Source of the DNA: Halalkaliarchaeum sp. AArc-CO | Lineage (GTDB): Archaea > Halobacteriota > Halobacteria > Halobacteriales > Haloferacaceae | Assembly (NCBI RefSeq): GCF_024972735.1 | Contig: NZ_CP087723.1 | Location: forward strand, 1,054,001-1,118,000 | Length of the DNA: 64,000 nt | Reading direction: 5' to 3' | Made by a program: the position numbers and the translations under genes | Notes under the pieces: model-generated | Database searches by the model: none | Told to the model about the DNA's origin: nothing | Seen by the model: the letters and a program-made list of their open reading frames with translations, nothing else | In this document: in pieces, positions 34,314 through 44,385 of the stretch | Numbering within the stretch: the stretch's first letter is position 1 | Layout of the letters: each line of letters opens with the position of its first letter

Positions 34314-37300
34314 CTATCGTTGCCGAACGAGCGGTCGGTGCGCCCCCTGGCCGGCTGACTGCTGTGGATCGGTCGAGGGACCCAGGTTCGTAGACGGTTC
34401 GAGCCGGAACGGGATCCGCCCGTTGGTTTCGTACGCGACTCGCACCCGGACGGAGTCACCGAACTCCTCTGTAAGCGCGGCTTTTATCCGTTGCACCTCG
34501 CCGACGTTCGATTCGTCGGCCTGTCGAATTCGAAATTCGAGCCGGTTCGGGCTGAGCCCGGGCGTCTCTCGGGCGTACTCGGTGTAAAATTCCATCTGTT
34601 CGACAGCCCCCGCCGGCGTCGTCGACGATTCGGTGGCTTTGACTTCGATCAGCCGTCCGTCCGAGGTCACGAGATCTATCTCTCCTCTGGCCGCGTCACT
34701 CCCGGGATCCCTGACGACGCGCCCGATCTCGTCGACGTTGTCGGGCCCGAGCTTCGCGGCCAGGTGCAGCTCCGCGGCCGTCCCTTTCAGGTTCTCGATG
34801 TCGTCGACGTCGTGTCGTGTCGCCGCCCTCCAGATCTCGTCGAAGGTTCCTTCGGCTCCGTCCGACGCCCGCATTCCCTGGGTGTTCCGCAACACTGCGG
34901 CGTTCTCGAACAGTGCTCCGGCGTCGATCGTATCGCCGCCGGTAGTCGTGAACGGCTCCCTGTCTGCAAGCCGGATACCGACCTCGAGTTCGTCGATCTG
35001 GTCTGCCCGGATGAAGCCGTCCTCGACGAGGACTTCGAGGTGGTGTGGGTCGATCCCTTCGTCACTGACCGCCCTGATGGCGGCCGGGGAGGTCCCCTGA
35101 TCGACGAGATTTCTGGCCGAGCGGAGGTCCGCCCCGTTTTCGGCGAGCCGAACGACCTCTGCCCGAGTGAAGTGGCCGTTGTCGACCAGCGTACGCGCCG
35201 GGTTCTGGCCCTGACTGTTGTGTCGGTAGTAATCGAGGACGATGTCGTAGCGCTGGTTGGTCGACAGCTCCCGACCGGACAACAGACGGGTCTGAGACAG
35301 CGTGTCTCCCAGTGCATACCGGTCTGCCCCCCGAAGCTGAGCGCTCATCGCGTCGGTTCGCCCGACGCGAACGAGGGTTTCGGCCCACTTCTGTGAGAGG
35401 CTCTGTCGGAGTGCGCCGCGGGTGAGCGACCGGGAGACGCTTCCGACGCTTTTGCCGACCGCCTGTGCCGGTTTACTGGCGAGATCCAGAGCGATCCATC
35501 CACCGCCGTACGCCATGAGTGTCCTGTCGTCGGTGTCCTTCCCACGCCTGAACTGCCCGTAATGCTCGGTGAATGCGTATCCGATGAAGTGGCCGGTGCG
35601 ATACTCCAGCGAATCCCGATCGACGTACGATACACCGATCTCGTCGAAGTAGAAGTCGGCGTTGTCGTACGGATCCACCCCCTCCATCGTCCCCTCGGAG
35701 ATGCCGATCTGCGTCAGTTCGGGCAACTGCTTCGACGGCATCGACATCGCGGTTCGAGCGCCGAACCGGTAGAACGGTTCCTGGTTAAAATCGTGCGAAG
35801 ACGTCGTTTCTTCGCCGCTGTCGTGAACCGTGTACGACTCCTCTGACCGAGTTCGCTCCCACGTTTCTACGTTTGCAGTGACCGCGACGAGGCCGGTTTC
35901 CTCCCGGAGGTAGATCTGCGTCGTTCCGGTGTGGCCATCCCGGGCGAGCTGATCGAGGACGTTCTCGATCCGTTGAATGCGGGTTCCTTCCTCCGGTATT
36001 CGTTCGAACTCCTCGAACGCCTCGTGGGCCTCGTAATCACGGAGGCCGGCCTCCTCGGGGTCCGGAAGCGGCCGTAACGAGAGTTCTCGCCCGGAGGAAT
36101 CTCCAGTGATAATGATCGGTTCGGCCATGTACTTCTCGACTTCGAGAGTGCGTTGTGTCCGAATCGGCTGATCGAACAGATCGACGTACCCGGTTGCGTC
36201 AGTCGTCGCGGTTTCTCCAGTTTCTCTGACGGTGACCTCCGCCCGGTTGAGCGGTTCGCCGGTTTCCGCATCGGTGAGCTGTATCGTCTCGCGAACTGTC
36301 TCTCGAAGATGAAAGTCAGTCTGACTCATCAGTGGGCGCTGCTGGAGTGGGTCGATGAGCCGCCCTTGGCCCTCGAACCCGTCTTTGTCCACACTGACTG
36401 ACAGGGTCACGGCAGTCGGGACGTCACGAAACGTGAACTCTCCTGTCCCGGTTTTGTCCCGTGTTATCTCCATCTCGTTTGATAACAGTAGTCCGTCTCC
36501 ACGGACGGTTCCATGGACGGTAACGTCGTCTAGCGGTTCGCCGGTTTCCCAGTGGGAGATCGTAATCGTGACGTCGGTGAACTTCTCTGCGAACACGGTG
36601 TGGCCGAGCCACTCGGTCCGTTCCGAGCCGATCGTGACTCCGGCCCTGACTCGTTTGTCGACAGCGGACTCGGGAAGATCGTCCCACCGGAGCGTGATCG
36701 TCTTCGTTTCCCCCGCCGGAATGACGTGTTCCGAACCGTCCGGCTCGCCGACGATCTCGCCGTCCCGTTCGACGACGCCGGAGAGAGATGTTACGACTTC
36801 CCGGTCCGTGGGGTTCGTGACTGCAAGTTCTACTGCGTCCTCGCCGACCTCATAAAAAGGATCGAGTCGTTCGGTTCGGGAGACGACGAGTTCGTCGGCT
36901 CCGACGTCGGTCGGGTCGACCTCGAACGCGCTGCTGTCGTACTTCTCTGCAACCGGTGTCTCCGACTGGGAGTCGCTCTCGTTACGGACTGCCAGTTCGA
37001 CGCCGTACTCGCCGGATCTGGCGTCGGATTCGACGGTCCACGGGAGCGAAACCAGTTGCGTCGCTCCGGGTCGAAGCGTAACTGTTTCTTCGAGGGTGAC
37101 GTCCTCGTTTGCCCTACTGTCGTGTCCGGAGGTCTCGATATCGGGTCCCAGAACTGTGTAGTGGAGTACAAACGTTTTGTCATCGTCGCCAGTGTTCGCG
37201 ATTTCTGCCGTCGTTTCGACGGTCTCGCCCGCCGAAAACGGTCCGTCTTCGGTTTCGAGCCGAATGATTTCGGCGTCTACCTCGACCTCCTCGACGAAGA

Positions 37301-40115
37301 CTGCTGTGAGTTTGCGGTCTCGGTCGGCGACGACAGCGATCGACGGTTCCTCGGTGTCCACGTCCGAAACGTCGCCTTCCCATCGATCGAACTCGTATCC
37401 ATGATCGGATTGGGCCGTAAGTTCGACTTCAGTCCCCTCCTCGTAGCTTTGGATCGTTCCGAGTGTAGACGTTCCCGGCGGATCGATCGCGACCGCACCG
37501 CTTCCTTGCGTTTCGACGGTGAATGAATGCTCGACGGCCTTCTCGACGAGGAAGGCACCGTTCTCGTGGTCGCTGTCCAGGCGGTTGTCCGCGGCTGAAC
37601 TGGCGAAGACGTTGCCGCCGGCGTCGTAGCTGCCGTCCGACATCGAGTCGGTTATTTCGAGGGAGAACGTCTCGGTGGTCGTTTCACCGGGTTCGAGTTC
37701 GACTGTCGTTTCTCCGGCGTAGTGGCTCCAGGTTCCATCCGGGCCGCGAGCGATCCCATCGATCAGAAACTCGTTTTCGACGTTGCCGACGTTTTCGACT
37801 GTCACGTCGATAGACGCCACTTCTCCCGGCGCGTAGCTGTCGCCTGCCACCGTTACGTCGGTAACTTTCGCGCCGACCTCCGCCGGCTCACGGAACGTGG
37901 CGGTAATCGTTCGATCCCGATCGATCGTCACCGTTATCGTTTCGGCGGTGGCGTCGTGGGACGGCACGTCGCCTTCCCATCGGTCGAACTCGTAGTCGGA
38001 GTCGGGGAACGCGATCAGCTCTACTTCCGTTCCTTCCTCGTAGGTCTGTGTCGTTCCGAGCGTGCTCATCCCTGGCGGATCGATACCGATTCCACCGTTT
38101 CCGCCGGATTCCACTGACAGTGTGTATTCAGCGACGTCCTCCTCGACGGTGACTGTCCACTCGGCGGCGGCGTCGTTATAGGTGCCGCTGCTGTCGAACA
38201 CGTCCACTTCGATGGAGTAGGTTCCGGGCTCTTCGAAGCGGTACGACCAGGTGTCGGTGTCGGCACTTCCGTCCAGTCCATACGTGGCTTCCTGGAACGA
38301 CCCGTCGACGTACCATTCCGTTCCGTGGAGATCTCCATCCGGATCCTCCGCCCCAACGCTGAACGTCACCAGTTCGCCTTCCTGAATGGTGAGCGATTGT
38401 TCGGGACTGTCGGTCCACGACTCTGGGGGTCCGCCGGCTTCCTCCTGGAACGTGGCGGTAATCGTGCGGTCCCGATCCATCGTTACCGTTATCGTTTCGG
38501 CGGTGGCGTCGTGTGAGGACACGTCGCCGTCCCACCGATCGAACTCGTAGTCGGTGTCGGGGAACGCGATCAGCTCTACTTGAGCCCCTTCCTCGTACGT
38601 CTGTGTCGTTCCGAGCGTGCTCATCCCTGGCGGATCGACTCCGATCCCCCCACCGTCCTCGGACGATATCGACAGCGTGTACTCCTCAACATCTTCTTCG
38701 ACGGTGACTGTCCACTCGGCGGCGGCGTCGTTATAGGTGCCGCTGCTGTCGAACACGTCCACTTCGATGGAGTAGGTTCCGGGCTCTTCGAAGCGGTACG
38801 ACCAGGTGTCGGTGTCGGCACTTCCGTCCAGTCCATACGTGGCTTCCTGGAACGACCCGTCGACGTACCATTCCGTTCCGTGGAGATCTCCATCCGGATC
38901 CTCCGCCCCAACGCTGAACGTCACCAGTTCGCCTTCCTGAATGGTGAGCGATTGTTCGGGACTGTCGGTCCACGACTCTGGGGGTCCGCCGGCTTCCTCC
39001 TGGAACGTGGCGGTAATCGTGCGGTCCCGATCCATCGTTACCGTTATCGTTTCGGCGGTGGCGTCGTGGGACGGCACGTCGCCTTCCCATCGGTCGAACT
39101 CGTAGTCGGTGTCGGGGAACGCGATCAGCTCTACTTCCGTTCCTTCCTCGTAGGTCTGTGTCGTTTCCAGCGTGCTCATCCCTGGCGGATCGACGCCGAT
39201 CCCCCCACCGTCCTCGGACGATATCGACAGTGTGTACTCCTCGACATCCTCCTCCACGAGGAAGGCCCCGTTCTCGTGGTCGCCGTCCAGGCGGTTGTCC
39301 GCGGCCGGACTGGCGAAGACGTTGCCGCCGGCGTCGTAGCTCCCCTCCGGCATGGAGTCGGTTATTTCGAGGGAGAACGTTTCGGTGGTCGTTTCACCGG
39401 GTGCGAGTTCGACTGTCGTTTCTCCGGCGTAGTGGCTCCAGGTTCCATCCGGGCCGCGAGCGATCCCATCGATCAGAAACTCGTTTTCGACGTTGCCGAC
39501 GTTTTCGACTGTCACGTCGATAGACGCCACTTCTCCCGGCGCGTAGCTGTCGCCTGCCACGGTGACGTCTGTCGTTCGTGCGTCGATTACTTCTCTGACT
39601 TCGAGGGCGTCTTGGTCGACTTCGGAATCGTACCAGTGGTCCTTTCGTTCGGAGTAGAACACGCCGGCACCTGCGGTGTAGGTCCCTTCTGTCGCGTCCT
39701 CGGGGATCTGGACCGATAACGTCACCGTCTGTTCCTCGCCGGAGAACCAGCCGTCGTCGAGATGTACGGTCGTCCCTTCCCCGGTTATCCAGTCGCCGTC
39801 CGGGTCTCGAACGCTCGCGTCGACGTAGAAGTCGTGGCTCGTCTCTCCGGTGTTTTGAATCGTCACCTCGATCGGAACGGCGTCCCCCGGCGCGTAGCTA
39901 CCATCGACCGCTTCCACGTCGGTGATCTCTGCATCCGTGTCCTCGACTGAGAACACGTTCTCGAAGTCGGGTTCGTACTGGACTGAACCCTCGGCGCTGC
40001 CCGCGGTGGCAGCAGACGCGATAACACCCGTCCCCAGAACGAGGGCAAATATGGAAGCGACGAAAACGACGGTTGCGACGGTTTCAACCCCGGAACGACG
40101 GTCTCGTCTCGACAT
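34314..40115 (-). CDS. Giant repetitive surface protein with C-terminal PD-(D/E)XK nuclease-like domain
   Basis: A 1933-residue protein with an N-terminal export/anchor helix (about residues 10-40). CARDB-like beta domains follow, including two near-identical copies (185-287, 755-857). Bacterial-repeat (InlB B-like) domains with DYEFDRWEGD signatures alternate with PKD-like domains between about 300 and 940. Further CARDB-like and carboxypeptidase-regulatory-like domains run to about 1322. After a helical stretch and a hydrophobic segment (1532-1548) come short helical repeats (1628-1712). The last 154 residues (1780-1933) look like a nuclease: Glu in AAELHLAAKLG, Asp in GEIDLV, and Glu and Lys in LIEVKA. 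The layout resembles long polymorphic-toxin or contact-dependent proteins. ATG 40115 fits a TATA-like box at 40152-40145; an ATG at 40145 would overlap that box. Toxicity is inference. Confidence 0.75.
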   Translation of the reverse strand: MSRRDRRSGVETVATVVFVASIFALVLGTGVIASAATAGSAEGSVQYEPDFENVFSVEDTDAEITDVEAVDGSYAPGDAVPIEVTIQNTGETSHDFYVDASVRDPDGDWITGEGTTVHLDDGWFSGEEQTVTLSVQIPEDATEGTYTAGAGVFYSERKDHWYDSEVDQDALEVREVIDARTTDVTVAGDSYAPGEVASIDVTVENVGNVENEFLIDGIARGPDGTWSHYAGETTVELAPGETTTETFSLEITDSMPEGSYDAGGNVFASPAADNRLDGDHENGAFLVEEDVEEYTLSISSEDGGGIGVDPPGMSTLETTQTYEEGTEVELIAFPDTDYEFDRWEGDVPSHDATAETITVTMDRDRTITATFQEEAGGPPESWTDSPEQSLTIQEGELVTFSVGAEDPDGDLHGTEWYVDGSFQEATYGLDGSADTDTWSYRFEEPGTYSIEVDVFDSSGTYNDAAAEWTVTVEEDVEEYTLSISSEDGGGIGVDPPGMSTLGTTQTYEEGAQVELIAFPDTDYEFDRWDGDVSSHDATAETITVTMDRDRTITATFQEEAGGPPESWTDSPEQSLTIQEGELVTFSVGAEDPDGDLHGTEWYVDGSFQEATYGLDGSADTDTWSYRFEEPGTYSIEVDVFDSSGTYNDAAAEWTVTVEEDVAEYTLSVESGGNGGIGIDPPGMSTLGTTQTYEEGTEVELIAFPDSDYEFDRWEGDVPSHDATAETITVTIDRDRTITATFREPAEVGAKVTDVTVAGDSYAPGEVASIDVTVENVGNVENEFLIDGIARGPDGTWSHYAGETTVELEPGETTTETFSLEITDSMSDGSYDAGGNVFASSAADNRLDSDHENGAFLVEKAVEHSFTVETQGSGAVAIDPPGTSTLGTIQSYEEGTEVELTAQSDHGYEFDRWEGDVSDVDTEEPSIAVVADRDRKLTAVFVEEVEVDAEIIRLETEDGPFSAGETVETTAEIANTGDDDKTFVLHYTVLGPDIETSGHDSRANEDVTLEETVTLRPGATQLVSLPWTVESDARSGEYGVELAVRNESDSQSETPVAEKYDSSAFEVDPTDVGADELVVSRTERLDPFYEVGEDAVELAVTNPTDREVVTSLSGVVERDGEIVGEPDGSEHVIPAGETKTITLRWDDLPESAVDKRVRAGVTIGSERTEWLGHTVFAEKFTDVTITISHWETGEPLDDVTVHGTVRGDGLLLSNEMEITRDKTGTGEFTFRDVPTAVTLSVSVDKDGFEGQGRLIDPLQQRPLMSQTDFHLRETVRETIQLTDAETGEPLNRAEVTVRETGETATTDATGYVDLFDQPIRTQRTLEVEKYMAEPIIITGDSSGRELSLRPLPDPEEAGLRDYEAHEAFEEFERIPEEGTRIQRIENVLDQLARDGHTGTTQIYLREETGLVAVTANVETWERTRSEESYTVHDSGEETTSSHDFNQEPFYRFGARTAMSMPSKQLPELTQIGISEGTMEGVDPYDNADFYFDEIGVSYVDRDSLEYRTGHFIGYAFTEHYGQFRRGKDTDDRTLMAYGGGWIALDLASKPAQAVGKSVGSVSRSLTRGALRQSLSQKWAETLVRVGRTDAMSAQLRGADRYALGDTLSQTRLLSGRELSTNQRYDIVLDYYRHNSQGQNPARTLVDNGHFTRAEVVRLAENGADLRSARNLVDQGTSPAAIRAVSDEGIDPHHLEVLVEDGFIRADQIDELEVGIRLADREPFTTTGGDTIDAGALFENAAVLRNTQGMRASDGAEGTFDEIWRAATRHDVDDIENLKGTAAELHLAAKLGPDNVDEIGRVVRDPGSDAARGEIDLVTSDGRLIEVKATESSTTPAGAVEQMEFYTEYARETPGLSPNRLEFRIRQADESNVGEVQRIKAALTEEFGDSVRVRVAYETNGRIPFRLEPSTNLGPSTDPQQSAGQGAHRPLVRQR
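37546..37851 (-). repeat. CARDB-like repeat, copy 2
   Basis: A 306-base block nearly identical to 39256-39561, offset 1710 bases. It encodes a beta domain beginning with VAGDSYAPGEVASIDVTV. Most differences are single bases, pointing to recent duplication or gene conversion. Confidence 0.85.
38101..39210 (-). repeat. Two tandem 555-base copies of a two-domain unit
   Basis: The units 38101-38655 and 38656-39210 each encode 185 residues: one bacterial-repeat (DYEFDRW) domain plus one PKD-like domain. From 38150 to about 38500 the match to 38705-39055 appears essentially perfect by eye. Such identity suggests recent duplication or ongoing conversion. An assembly collapse or expansion here is possible. 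Confidence 0.88.
39256..39561 (-). repeat. CARDB-like repeat, copy 1
   Basis: Partner of 37546-37851 in the same gene. It lies on the N-terminal side of the 555-base units, so the two CARDB-like copies bracket the bacterial-repeat and PKD-like series. Confidence 0.85.
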
Positions 40116-40144
40116 ACACTGACTACCACCATGGACAGATGACA

Positions 40145-40152
40145 CTTATACC
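40145..40152 (-). promoter_or_regulatory. TATA-like box for the giant surface protein gene
   Basis: Read on the minus strand this is ggtataag. It is about 30 bases before ATG 40115, which favours that start over the ATG at 40145. Confidence 0.55.
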
Positions 40153-40829: not shown

Positions 40830-42060
40830 ATGTCCAACGACATGGAGGCCACGTCGGCGAAGCCGGCGGGTCGAGTTCTTCCAGGGCACACTGGATAGCA
40901 CTGGCGAGTTCGATTCTGTACAGATCTTCGACACGACGCTCCGAGACGGGGAGCAGTCACCACGCACGTCCTTCTCGACCGACGAAAAACGCGAGATAGC
41001 GGCTGCACTGGACGAGATGGGCGTGGGGGTCATCGAGGCTGGGTTCCCGGTCAATTCGGAGACAGAGTTCGAAACCGTTCGCGACATCGCGAGCGCGACG
41101 GAAACAACTACCTGCGGGCTGGCCCGGGTCGTCGACGGCGATATCGAGGCGGCACTGGACGCCGGCGTCGACATGGTGCACGTGTTCGTCTCGACTAGCG
41201 ACGTCCAGCTCGAGGATTCGATGCACGCCTCCCGCGAGGAGGCGAAACGGCGCGCAGTAGAGAGCGTCGAACGCGTACGCGAGGCGGGCGTCGAGGTGAT
41301 GTTCTCGCCGATGGACGCGACGCGAACCGACGAAACGTATCTGATCGAGGTGATCGAGGCCGTCACGGCGGCCGGCACCGACTGGATCAACATTCCGGAC
41401 ACCTGCGGGGTCGCAACCCCGGGGCGGTTCCGGAAACTGATCGCCACGGTGCGGGAACACACCGACGCGAAGATCGACGTCCACACCCACGACGACTTCG
41501 GCCTGGCGGCCGCGAACGCGCTTGCAGGCTTCGAGGCGGGCGCAAGCCAGGCGCAGGTGTCGGTAAACGGCATCGGCGAGCGCGCCGGAAACGCCGCCCT
41601 GGAGGAGGTCGTCATGGCCGCCGAGTCGATCTACGGCGCCGACACGGGAATCGACACGACGAGGATCACGGAGGTCTCCCGGATGGTCGAGCGCGCGAGC
41701 GACATCCCGGTGCCCGCGAACAAGCCGATCGTCGGTCGGAACGCGTTCGCCCACGAGAGTGGCATCCACGCCGCCGGGGTCATCGAAAACAGCGACACCT
41801 TCGAACCCGGCGTGATGACGCCGGAGATGGTCGGCGCACAGCGGGAGGTAGTACTCGGGAAGCACACCGGTACCCACGCCGTCAGACAGCACCTGGAGGA
41901 GGCCGGCTTCACGCCGACCGACGACGAGGTGCGGACGGTGACCGAGCGCGTGAAGGAACACGCGGCAAACAAGCGGGAGGTCACCGCCGGCGACGTAGTC
42001 CGGTTCGCGAAGGCCGTCGGCGTAGAAACCGACACCGAGGAATCAGAGGTGACCGCCTGA
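40830..42060 (+). CDS. leuA: 2-isopropylmalate synthase / citramalate synthase family, with apparent frameshift near the start
   Basis: Predicted to condense acetyl-CoA with 2-oxoisovalerate (LeuA) or pyruvate (CimA) at the head of leucine or isoleucine synthesis. The main frame carries IFDTTLRDGEQSPRTSF, the HMGL-like metal/keto-acid motif. It also carries DWINIPDTCGVATPG and the metal-binding VHTHDDFGLAAANAL, and VNGIGERAGNAALEEV follows. The only in-frame ATG (41017) lies after the catalytic motif, so it cannot be the start. The ATG at 40830, after a good promoter, begins MSNDMEATSAKPAG but hits a stop at 40896-40898. Removing one G from the GGG at 40868-40870 joins it to VEFFQGTLDS in the main frame, giving about 409 residues. 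Sequencing error, a real mutation or recoding are all possible. It is the first gene of the branched-chain cluster. Confidence 0.85.
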
Positions 42061-42167: not shown

Positions 42168-42175
42168 CATATAAG
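42168..42175 (+). promoter_or_regulatory. TATA-like box for the ilv leader transcript
   Basis: The sequence catataag is centred about 27 bases before ATG 42198. The predicted transcript would start at or just before the leader ATG, making the leader ORF leaderless. Confidence 0.65.
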
Positions 42176-42197
42176 AGCGGACGTTCTGCGACCGTGT

Positions 42198-42299
42198 ATG
42201 CGAGGGAACAGCACCGACAGGCTCGCTCCGTCCGGAGCGGCCGCTTCAGGTCGGTCCCTCGCGGGTGCCGTTCTCGGCGGGATTATTGTAGGGGCCTAG
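42198..42299 (+). CDS. Putative ilv leader peptide (33 codons)
   Basis: ATG 42198 to TAG 42297-42299 encodes a 33-residue peptide that is polar at first. It ends LAGAVLGGIIVGA, with Val, Leu, Ile, Ile and Val in its last nine residues. The ATT ATT GTA codons (42282-42290) run straight into the left arm of a stable hairpin whose loop starts the stop codon. The ATG sits at leaderless distance from a TATA-like box. The composition and placement match leader peptides of bacterial ilv operons, in which ribosome stalling at branched-chain codons controls transcription. No archaeal example is known to me. It could also be a small protein of another role. Confidence 0.5.
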   Translation: MRGNSTDRLAPSGAAASGRSLAGAVLGGIIVGA

Positions 42300-42391
42300 C
42301 CCCTACACCACATCCACCTTCTGACCCACGCATTGCTCGACCGCCAAGCGACGGCGGTGTTACGCACCTCGCACCCGACCGCGGGGTTTTT
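42288..42391 (+). promoter_or_regulatory. Candidate attenuator: three hairpins and a T-tract upstream of ilvB
   Basis: Hairpin 1 is gtaggggc (42288-42295) pairing with gcccctac (42299-42306), loop cta; it holds the leader's last codons and stop. Hairpin 2 is accgcc (42340-42345) with ggcggt (42353-42358). Hairpin 3 is a weak cccg (42374-42377) with cggg (42382-42385), followed by G and five Ts (42387-42391), like an archaeal terminator. A ribosome paused at Ile-Ile-Val would disturb hairpin 1 and could change the downstream folding. The mechanism is inferred. Confidence 0.5.
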
Positions 42392-42555
42392 CGGCAGGGT
42401 TCATTCGAAACCCGGGCCACGCCGGAACGGCGACGCGGGAACCGACCGAGCCGAACACGACGACACGGAACACGGATGACAACTGGAACGCGACGGAACG
42501 ACGCACGATCGAACGGAACAGAACCGAACGACACACGACCGAACGGAGGAAACGC

Positions 42556-44385
42556 ATGAGCGAATCACCGACTGCAGCCGAACGGAAACGGGGCGGCGAG
42601 GCGGAGGAGCCCGACGCGGAGAAACCGGAAGCCGGAGCAAACGGGAACGCCGGGGAAACCGGCGAACCACGTGACCCTGCGGCAGTTCCCGAGACGGGTG
42701 CTGCAGCAATCGTCGCCGCACTCGAGGCGGCCGCCGTCGACACGGCGTTCGGCGTCCAGGGTGGCGCCATCATGCCCGTGTACGACGAGCTGTACGACTC
42801 TTCGGTGCACCACGTCACGATGGCCCACGAGCAGGGGGCGGCCCACGCGGCGGACGCGTACGGCATCGTCGCAGGCGAGCCCGGGGTCTGTCTCGCGACG
42901 TCGGGTCCCGGCGCGACGAACCTGGTGACCGGCATCGCGGACGCGTCGATGGATTCAGATGCCATGCTGGCGCTGACCGGACAGGTTCCCACCGAGTTCG
43001 TCGGTAACGACGCCTTCCAGGAGGTCGACACGATCGGCATCACGACGCCGATCACGAAACACAACTACTTCGCAGAGGACTCGGCGACCGTCGGGGACGT
43101 CGTCGGCGAGGCGTTCGCGCTGGCGAACACAGGTCGACCCGGACCGACCCTGGTCGATCTCCCCAAGGACGTGAGCTTCGGCGAGGCCGGTAGCGAACCG
43201 GCGCCACCGAAACCGCCGGCGCGTGCCGATCCCCACCCCGACGCAGCCAGCGACGACGTCGAACGGGCCGCTCGCGCGATAGAGCGGGCCGAACGACCGG
43301 TGTGTCTCTTCGGCGGCGGTGTCATCAAAGGCGACGCAAGCGAGGAGGCCAGAACGTTCGCGCGGGAACTCGGAATTCCGGTCGTGACGACGATGCCCGG
43401 GATCGGGAGCTTCCCCGACGACGATCCGCTCTGTCTGGAGTGGGCCGGGATGCACGGCACCGGCTACGCCAACATGGCGATCACACACACGGATCTGCTG
43501 ATCGGCGTCGGAACGCGGTTCGACGACCGACTCACCGGCGGAGTCGAGACGTTCGCTCCGGAAGCCGAGGTCGTTCACGTCGACATCGATCCGGCCGAGG
43601 TCTCGAAGAATATCTACGCGGACTACCCACTGATCGGCGACGCCGGCACGGTGCTGGAGCAGCTGCGGGCGGAGATCCGACAGCCCCCCGAGGCGGGACC
43701 CTGGCGCGACCAGTGCGAGCAGTGGACCGAGGAGTATCCGATGACGTACCGGGCCGACGAGGAGGAGCCGCTCAAACCACAGTTCGTCGTCGAGGCGTTC
43801 GACGAGGCGACCGACGACGACACGGTCGTCACCGCCGGCGTCGGCCAACACCAGATGTGGGCCGCCCAGTTTTGGACGTTCACCGAGCCCCGCACCTGGC
43901 TGTCGAGCCACGGGCTGGGGACGATGGGCTACGGCGTTCCAGGCGCGATCGGCGCGCGCGTCGCGCTGGACGACGCCGGCGAGACAGAGAGGGACGTTGT
44001 CTGCTTCGACGGCGACGGATCGTTCCTGATGACGATGCAGGAACTGTCGGTGGCGGTCAGAGAGCACATGGACGTCACCTTCGTGGTGCTCAACAACGAG
44101 TACATCGGGATGGTCCGGCAGTGGCAGGACGCCTTCTTCGAGGGGCGCCACATGGCCTCCGACTACAACTGGATGCCGGAGTTCGACACCCTCGCGGAGG
44201 CATTCGGCGCCCGTGGGTTCCGGATCGACGACTACGACGAGGTTTCGGAGGTCGTCGAGGAGGCGCTGGCGTACGACGGGCCATCGGTCGTGGACGCCCA
44301 CGTGGATCCCGACGAGAACGTCTACCCGATGGTGCCAAGCGGCGGCGCGAACGGACTGTTCGCCCTCTCGGAGGATCAGCTATGA
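42556..44385 (+). CDS. ilvB: Acetolactate synthase large (catalytic) subunit
   Basis: Thiamine-diphosphate enzyme making acetolactate or acetohydroxybutyrate, the first common step of Val, Leu and Ile synthesis. The 609 residues begin with an acidic tail of about 50. GVQGGAIMPVYDEL and HEQGAAHAADAYG (with the catalytic Glu) follow. The FAD-binding middle domain contains MPGIGSFPDDDPLCLEWAGM. The cofactor motif GDGSFLMTMQEL...NNEY lies near residues 490-515 (GDG and about 27 residues later NN). The start has an ideal ggagga site at 42545-42550, so it is a leadered gene, unlike most haloarchaeal operon heads. It overlaps ilvN by four bases. Confidence 0.95.
   Translation: MSESPTAAERKRGGEAEEPDAEKPEAGANGNAGETGEPRDPAAVPETGAAAIVAALEAAAVDTAFGVQGGAIMPVYDELYDSSVHHVTMAHEQGAAHAADAYGIVAGEPGVCLATSGPGATNLVTGIADASMDSDAMLALTGQVPTEFVGNDAFQEVDTIGITTPITKHNYFAEDSATVGDVVGEAFALANTGRPGPTLVDLPKDVSFGEAGSEPAPPKPPARADPHPDAASDDVERAARAIERAERPVCLFGGGVIKGDASEEARTFARELGIPVVTTMPGIGSFPDDDPLCLEWAGMHGTGYANMAITHTDLLIGVGTRFDDRLTGGVETFAPEAEVVHVDIDPAEVSKNIYADYPLIGDAGTVLEQLRAEIRQPPEAGPWRDQCEQWTEEYPMTYRADEEEPLKPQFVVEAFDEATDDDTVVTAGVGQHQMWAAQFWTFTEPRTWLSSHGLGTMGYGVPGAIGARVALDDAGETERDVVCFDGDGSFLMTMQELSVAVREHMDVTFVVLNNEYIGMVRQWQDAFFEGRHMASDYNWMPEFDTLAEAFGARGFRIDDYDEVSEVVEEALAYDGPSVVDAHVDPDENVYPMVPSGGANGLFALSEDQL

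Follow-up and report, generated by a model that had tools for sequence, protein, structure and literature searches.

The window analysed here, a stretch of 64,000 nucleotides (positions 1054001-1118000 within a 3.18 Mb genome), carries leuA and, downstream of it, ilvB, ilvN, ilvC, leuC, leuD and leuB, genes of isoleucine, valine and leucine synthesis, all named by reading the translations of the window ORFs; between leuA and ilvB lies a short leader (Table 1). Its ORF, with the translation MRGNSTDRLAPSGAAASGRSLAGAVLGGIIVGA, begins with the ATG at 42198 and closes with the codons ATT ATT GTA GGG GCC TAG (42282-42299), the stop codon occupying 42297-42299. The last codons run into hairpin 1, in whose 8-bp stem TGTAGGGG (42287-42294) pairs with CCCCTACA (42300-42307), so that GTAGGGG stands opposite CCCCTAC, and the folding of the leader beats that of its shuffles (z = -3.04). 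The original prediction, made from the letters alone, had described a TATA-like box, a 33-codon ORF with Ile-Ile-Val codons, an 8-bp hairpin abutting those codons with the stop codon in its loop, and a ribosome site belonging to ilvB itself; on direct reading each of these is in place. An Rfam scan of the window did not find a leader or T-box family at the leader site, its sole match being the C/D box RNA sR-tMet (RF02163; 59340-59409, plus strand; score above the gathering threshold). Elsewhere in the window, a 1943-aa ORF (34314-40145, minus strand) contains several near-identical internal repeats (EFDRWEGDVPSHDATAETITVTMDRDRTITATFQEEAGG...).

Table 1. Features of the ilvB leader region, with positions counted from the first nucleotide of the window
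Feature	Position	Strand	Basis
TATA box ATATAA	42169-42174	+	Sequence; 29 nt before the leader ATG; TATA/BRE-like profile at -39 to -27 from the ATG in aligned leaders
Leader ORF (putative), leaderless type, 33 codons, end AVLGGIIVGA-stop	42198-42299	+	Sequence, relatives, frame test
Control codons (proposed) ATT ATT GTA (Ile-Ile-Val)	42282-42290	+	Ile precedes GTA in 115/122 leaders; rare codons ATT, GTA
Hairpin 1, stop codon in loop; proposed terminator stem	42287-42307	+	Present in 121/122 leaders; stop in loop in 113/121; compensatory pair
G-free pyrimidine-rich tract directly 3' of hairpin 1	42307-42322	+	Relatives: low G over 15 nt, T peak at +10 to +14
Hairpin 2 (42340-42345 with 42353-42358)	42340-42358	+	Sister species only; genus-specific, probably not core
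TTTTTC (T5 at 42387-42391, then C)	42387-42392	+	Form of the H. volcanii T5C terminator (PMC7237163); species-specific position
ilvB, acetolactate synthase large subunit	42556-44385	+	ORF; orthologues in 94/99 relatives; GGAGG at 42545-42549

Leaders were fetched upstream of IlvB from 48 organism-named haloarchaeal loci and from 94 of 99 related genomes, and the removal of identical copies left 122 distinct leaders with the motif GTAGGGG and nine loci without it. GTAGGGG served as the anchor of this set, so its presence in every leader holds by construction, the fair figure being 122 of 131. The 122 distinct haloarchaeal leaders repeat this ORF end, its frame, the hairpin and the placement of the stop codon in the loop, and they end, with few exceptions, in (Ile/Val/Leu)-Val-Gly-(Ala/Val)-(X)-stop; such a recurrence argues that the element is not a product of chance. 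As for the nine loci without the motif, one lies on a contig that ends before the leader, four belong to deep lineages in which ilvB follows close behind leuA, one represents a single loss and one is a degenerate low-GC case (GTA GGT GCT TAG). The remaining two (L163 and L177), which also lack GTA, are second, diverged copies of ilvB with leader ORFs of their own, ending in IIGVHA-stop and IIGAPQ-stop. They read ATT ATT GGG GTT CAC GCC TAG AACCCC and ATT ATC GGG GCT CCC CAG TAA CGCCCC, respectively, and thus keep the Ile-Ile codons, a GC hairpin and the stop codon in the loop, all three being separable from GTAGGGG.

The reading frame is under evident constraint. Starting from an ATG preceded at promoter distance by an AT-rich box, frame 0 is open to GTA in 116 of the 122 leaders, as compared with 0 and 2 for the +1 and +2 frames (binomial p about 1e-52), and this frame is held while the length of the ORF varies several-fold, from about 15 to 60 codons. 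From the promoter profile of the aligned leaders (Table 1), transcripts should start at the leader ATG or within a few bases of it. With frame and start so strongly conserved, the leader ORF appears to be an element of the translated type, and not merely one of RNA or DNA, although there are no direct translation data.

The choice of codons at the end of the ORF is particular too. An Ile codon directly precedes GTA in 115 of the 122 leaders, and in 81 of these 115 it is ATT, which accounts for only 4.2% of the Ile codons of ilvB (94% of them being ATC), while GTA makes up 0.5% of the ilvB Val codons. In 60 of 121 leaders GTA is kept even though its first base is unpaired, so that pairing alone cannot explain its presence. 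The preference for rare codons points to sensing via tRNA rather than via the sequence of the peptide, and it bears on the possibility of an arrest peptide, in which the nascent chain would itself sense free Ile or Val in the ribosome tunnel, as TnaC-like peptides do. Conservation of the C-terminal end, (I)IVG(A/V), is what this possibility has in its favour; the peptide residues upstream, however, are not conserved, and variants ending in V-V-G, L-V-G, R-V-G and I-I-G occur. It is the explanation to which we give the least credence.

Hairpin 1 is conserved as a structure. GGGG has a 3' pairing partner in 121 of the 122 leaders; among these 121 the stop codon lies wholly or partly in the loop in 113, and the loop ranges from 2 to over 10 nt. 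The stem pair next to GGGG covaries (C-G in 87 leaders, U-A in 15, U-G in 5 and C-A in 3; Fisher p 9e-12): GCN (Ala) goes with G and GTN (Val) with A, often through replacement of a TAG stop codon by TAA. On the IlvB tree (68 rows) the U-A state requires 6 changes, at least 5 of them forced by well-supported branches. The original prediction had proposed that relatives be compared for branched-chain codons and compensatory stem changes, and it would have fallen had neither the ORF nor the stems been kept; the comparison was run, and the codons, the repeated passage from C-G to U-A, the ORF and the stem of hairpin 1 all speak for it. The same cannot be said of its full set of hairpins. Hairpin 2 recurs only in a sister species of the same genus, hairpin 3 is not conserved in the haloarchaeal leaders compared, and the T5 run starting at 42387 is absent from that sister species, where other T runs are kept. 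Beyond the genus, the stacked leaders conserve only hairpin 1 and the pyrimidine/T tract directly behind it, and they yielded no conserved competing antiterminator. None of hairpin 2, hairpin 3 and the T5 run is conserved past the genus, and all three were therefore rejected as core parts.

Could the palindrome GTAGGGG-n-CCCCTAC instead be a DNA operator, or a protein-binding site in RNA, with the ORF merely incidental? The primary sequence of GTAGGGG is almost invariant, more strictly so than codon meaning or pairing alone demands, which fits such a site and counts against the attenuation that we favour; a perfect palindrome, moreover, would suit a dimer. Nevertheless, the strict frame and the leaderless ATG are hard to reconcile with a binding site, the distance to the promoter varies several-fold, the spacing of the half-sites is as variable as the loop, and the ilvB paralogues keep the Ile-Ile codons with different arm sequences. 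Nor do such sites form a set across the genome: with a single leader copy in the own genome and no excess over the reversed pattern in the 99 relatives, the idea of an operator-type regulon was rejected. An operator or protein-binding site is, in our view, very improbable.

Behind the hairpin, G falls to about 4-6% over 15 nt and T climbs to 37% at +10 to +14. TTTTC occurs 28 times between the hairpin and ilvB, compared with 2.0 in shuffles (about 14-fold) and 3 on the opposite strand, and the coding sequence of ilvB has none; nearly all of the 28 occurrences lie at +8 to +13 and at +34 to +44. In H. volcanii the motif for intergenic termination is a T stretch ending in C, with T5C giving 95% termination in vivo (PMC7237163); the TTTTTC of the window matches this motif but sits further downstream. 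The tract itself is C-rich, and TTTT is present in just 32 of 121 leaders; termination here may thus be weak, or may rely on a factor. One hairpin tested in Haloferax volcanii produced 59% termination (PMC7237163); against a hairpin terminator stands the finding that archaeal terminators are mostly independent of hairpins (PMC8716108). Termination at this leader is itself an inference, and the terminator most likely consists of hairpin 1 and the tract right behind it, not of hairpin 3.

The same tract admits an explanation without any hairpin terminator, in which the release of the ribosome at the leader stop would expose the G-free pyrimidine stretch for the loading of aCPSF1/FttA, the hairpin or a stalled ribosome merely tuning termination, with tnaC and polarity as the parallels from Rho. 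The 15 nt behind the hairpin, nearly free of G and rich in C and U, are suited to this, and aCPSF1, a general archaeal termination factor, does bind U-tracts (PMC8716108). Such loading would leave unaccounted for a hairpin retained in 121 of 122 leaders with compensatory changes, and a ribosome stalled at the Ile or Val codons would stop short of the tract, whose first base in the window lies about 17-20 nt past GTA. We regard it as unlikely, without dismissing it.

What fits best is ribosome-mediated attenuation of the ilvB leader, which we hold to be probable. Sequence comparison establishes, as far as it can, the ORF, the frame, the codons, the hairpin, the stop codon in the loop and the tract, whereas stalling, termination and the response to amino acids are inferred from it. 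The ilvBNC-leuCDB transcript would begin on the ATG of the leaderless ORF or no more than a few bases away, and ribosomes would translate this ORF with RNA polymerase just ahead. When charged Ile and Val tRNAs are ample, the ribosome would clear ATT-(ATT)-GTA, reach the stop codon in the loop and leave; with the ribosome gone, the GGGG/CCCC hairpin could form and, together with the pyrimidine/T4C tract, bring about termination before ilvB, probably with aCPSF1/FttA. When Ile-tRNA or Val-tRNA is scarce, the ribosome would wait while ATT or GTA occupies its A site. The footprint of a ribosome extends about 12 nt downstream of the A site, and that of the waiting ribosome would cover the 5' arm, blocking the hairpin and letting the polymerase continue into ilvB. 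The control codons lie directly against the GGGG arm, a geometry that fits direct masking, and the simplest reading is that the stalled ribosome itself masks the terminator hairpin, although masking, stalling and termination alike remain inferences. Since no conserved antiterminator was found, a closely trailing ribosome might keep the hairpin from forming even with an ample supply of amino acids, and the timing must then be set by the release of the ribosome or by pausing of the polymerase; transcription-translation coupling has been reported in H. volcanii (PMC8576121). The attenuator first proposed for this locus is thus supported in its ORF, its codons, its stem, its promoter at leaderless spacing and the presence of T4C runs, and amended in its terminator, for which hairpin 1 and the tract behind it are more likely than hairpin 3.

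The ilvB leader may not stand alone. Differential RNA-seq of H. volcanii had listed uORFs of 26 aa and 23 aa, upstream of pheS and of a tryptophan-tRNA ligase gene respectively, with no regulatory reading (Babski et al., PMC4983044, Table 2), and for this reason the pheS and trpS leaders were examined. Leaderless-type, Phe-rich leader ORFs precede pheS in 20 of 30 haloarchaeal genomes, the own genome included, with endings such as FGFFFGA, GFGFFFGA, GFFFA, FFFA, FGFVFA and similar. Before trpS2, the second tryptophan-tRNA ligase gene, leader peptides of the WRWR/WRWW type were present in 10 of 10 loci, and 9 of the 10 ORFs carry a conserved AGCGGACAG, predicted to form the 5' arm of a long hairpin, behind which comes a CU tract. 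Neither the Phe-rich nor the WRWR-type pattern occurred in any of 154 control short ORFs. At trpC and hisG, no conserved leader peptides with cognate codons were found. On balance we lean towards a general class of leader-peptide attenuators in haloarchaea, comprising at least those of ilvB, pheS and trpS2, which would have evolved independently and would combine leaderless translation, masking of a hairpin by a stalled ribosome, the archaeal polymerase and termination of the aCPSF1 type; it would be the first in archaea, and would provide functional evidence of coupling.

The neighbouring leuA (40830-42060, plus strand) presents a different peculiarity. A leaderless-type ATG ORF, MSNDMEATSAKPAGRVLPGHTG-stop (40830-40898), overlaps the catalytic frame (VEFFQGTLDST...FDTTLRDGEQ), which lies in +1 relative to it at CGA GTT CTT C (40872-40881); this short ORF was rejected as a leader peptide before leuA, for it overlaps the 5' part of the gene in another frame. 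Most leuA loci have no ATG or GTG in the leuA frame before the active-site motif, and nearly all of those examined share CGA GTT CTT C, while deep lineages show the same arrangement with CGT TTT TTG G. It is likely, judging from these sequences, that leuA needs a conserved programmed +1 frameshift, and possibly one that responds to leucine. The orthologue HVO_1510 is known to have a missing start codon and peptides upstream of Met-93, and slippage and leucine control have both been raised as possibilities for it (Pfeiffer and Dyall-Smith, PMC8305020); what the comparison of loci adds is the shared CGA GTT CTT C site.

No described ribosome-mediated attenuator in archaea was found in the literature searched, although subscription journals lay largely outside its scope and this absence is not proof. 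If confirmed, the ilvB leader would imply that the coupling of polymerase and ribosome in archaea is tight enough for regulation, would assign a regulatory role to leaderless transcripts, and would make coupling and termination simple to follow in vivo in an archaeon that is amenable to genetics.

In bacteria, leader-peptide attenuation belongs to textbook knowledge. As in bacterial ilv/leu attenuators of the Corynebacterium ilvBNC type (PMC11857589, PMC10272879), a branched-chain leader peptide lies near a hairpin upstream of ilvB, a T-containing tract follows the hairpin and a biosynthetic operon lies downstream. The haloarchaeal leader nevertheless departs from them in several respects: (i) it has a TATA promoter and a leaderless ORF, with only two to three control codons, placed at its very end; (ii) the stop codon lies inside the loop, a single hairpin is conserved and no antiterminator was detected in the stacked leaders; and (iii) the polymerase and the termination factor are different, and there is no Rfam match. 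The E. coli pheST attenuator uses the pheM leader, and the haloarchaeal pheS leaders similarly encode Phe-rich peptides before a Phe-tRNA ligase gene, although the peptides and structures differ, the host is an archaeon and the start is leaderless. With tnaC and Rho-dependent control the ilvB leader shares a leader ORF ahead of an unstructured, pyrimidine-rich stretch; here, however, the hairpin is conserved, it is the codons and not the nascent peptide that are conserved, and archaea, to our knowledge, are without Rho. Taken together, the ilvB-type leader, which recurs across almost all salt-loving archaea, looks like the amino-acid-sensing switch so far known from bacteria only, which would mean that one regulatory logic was arrived at by different machinery.
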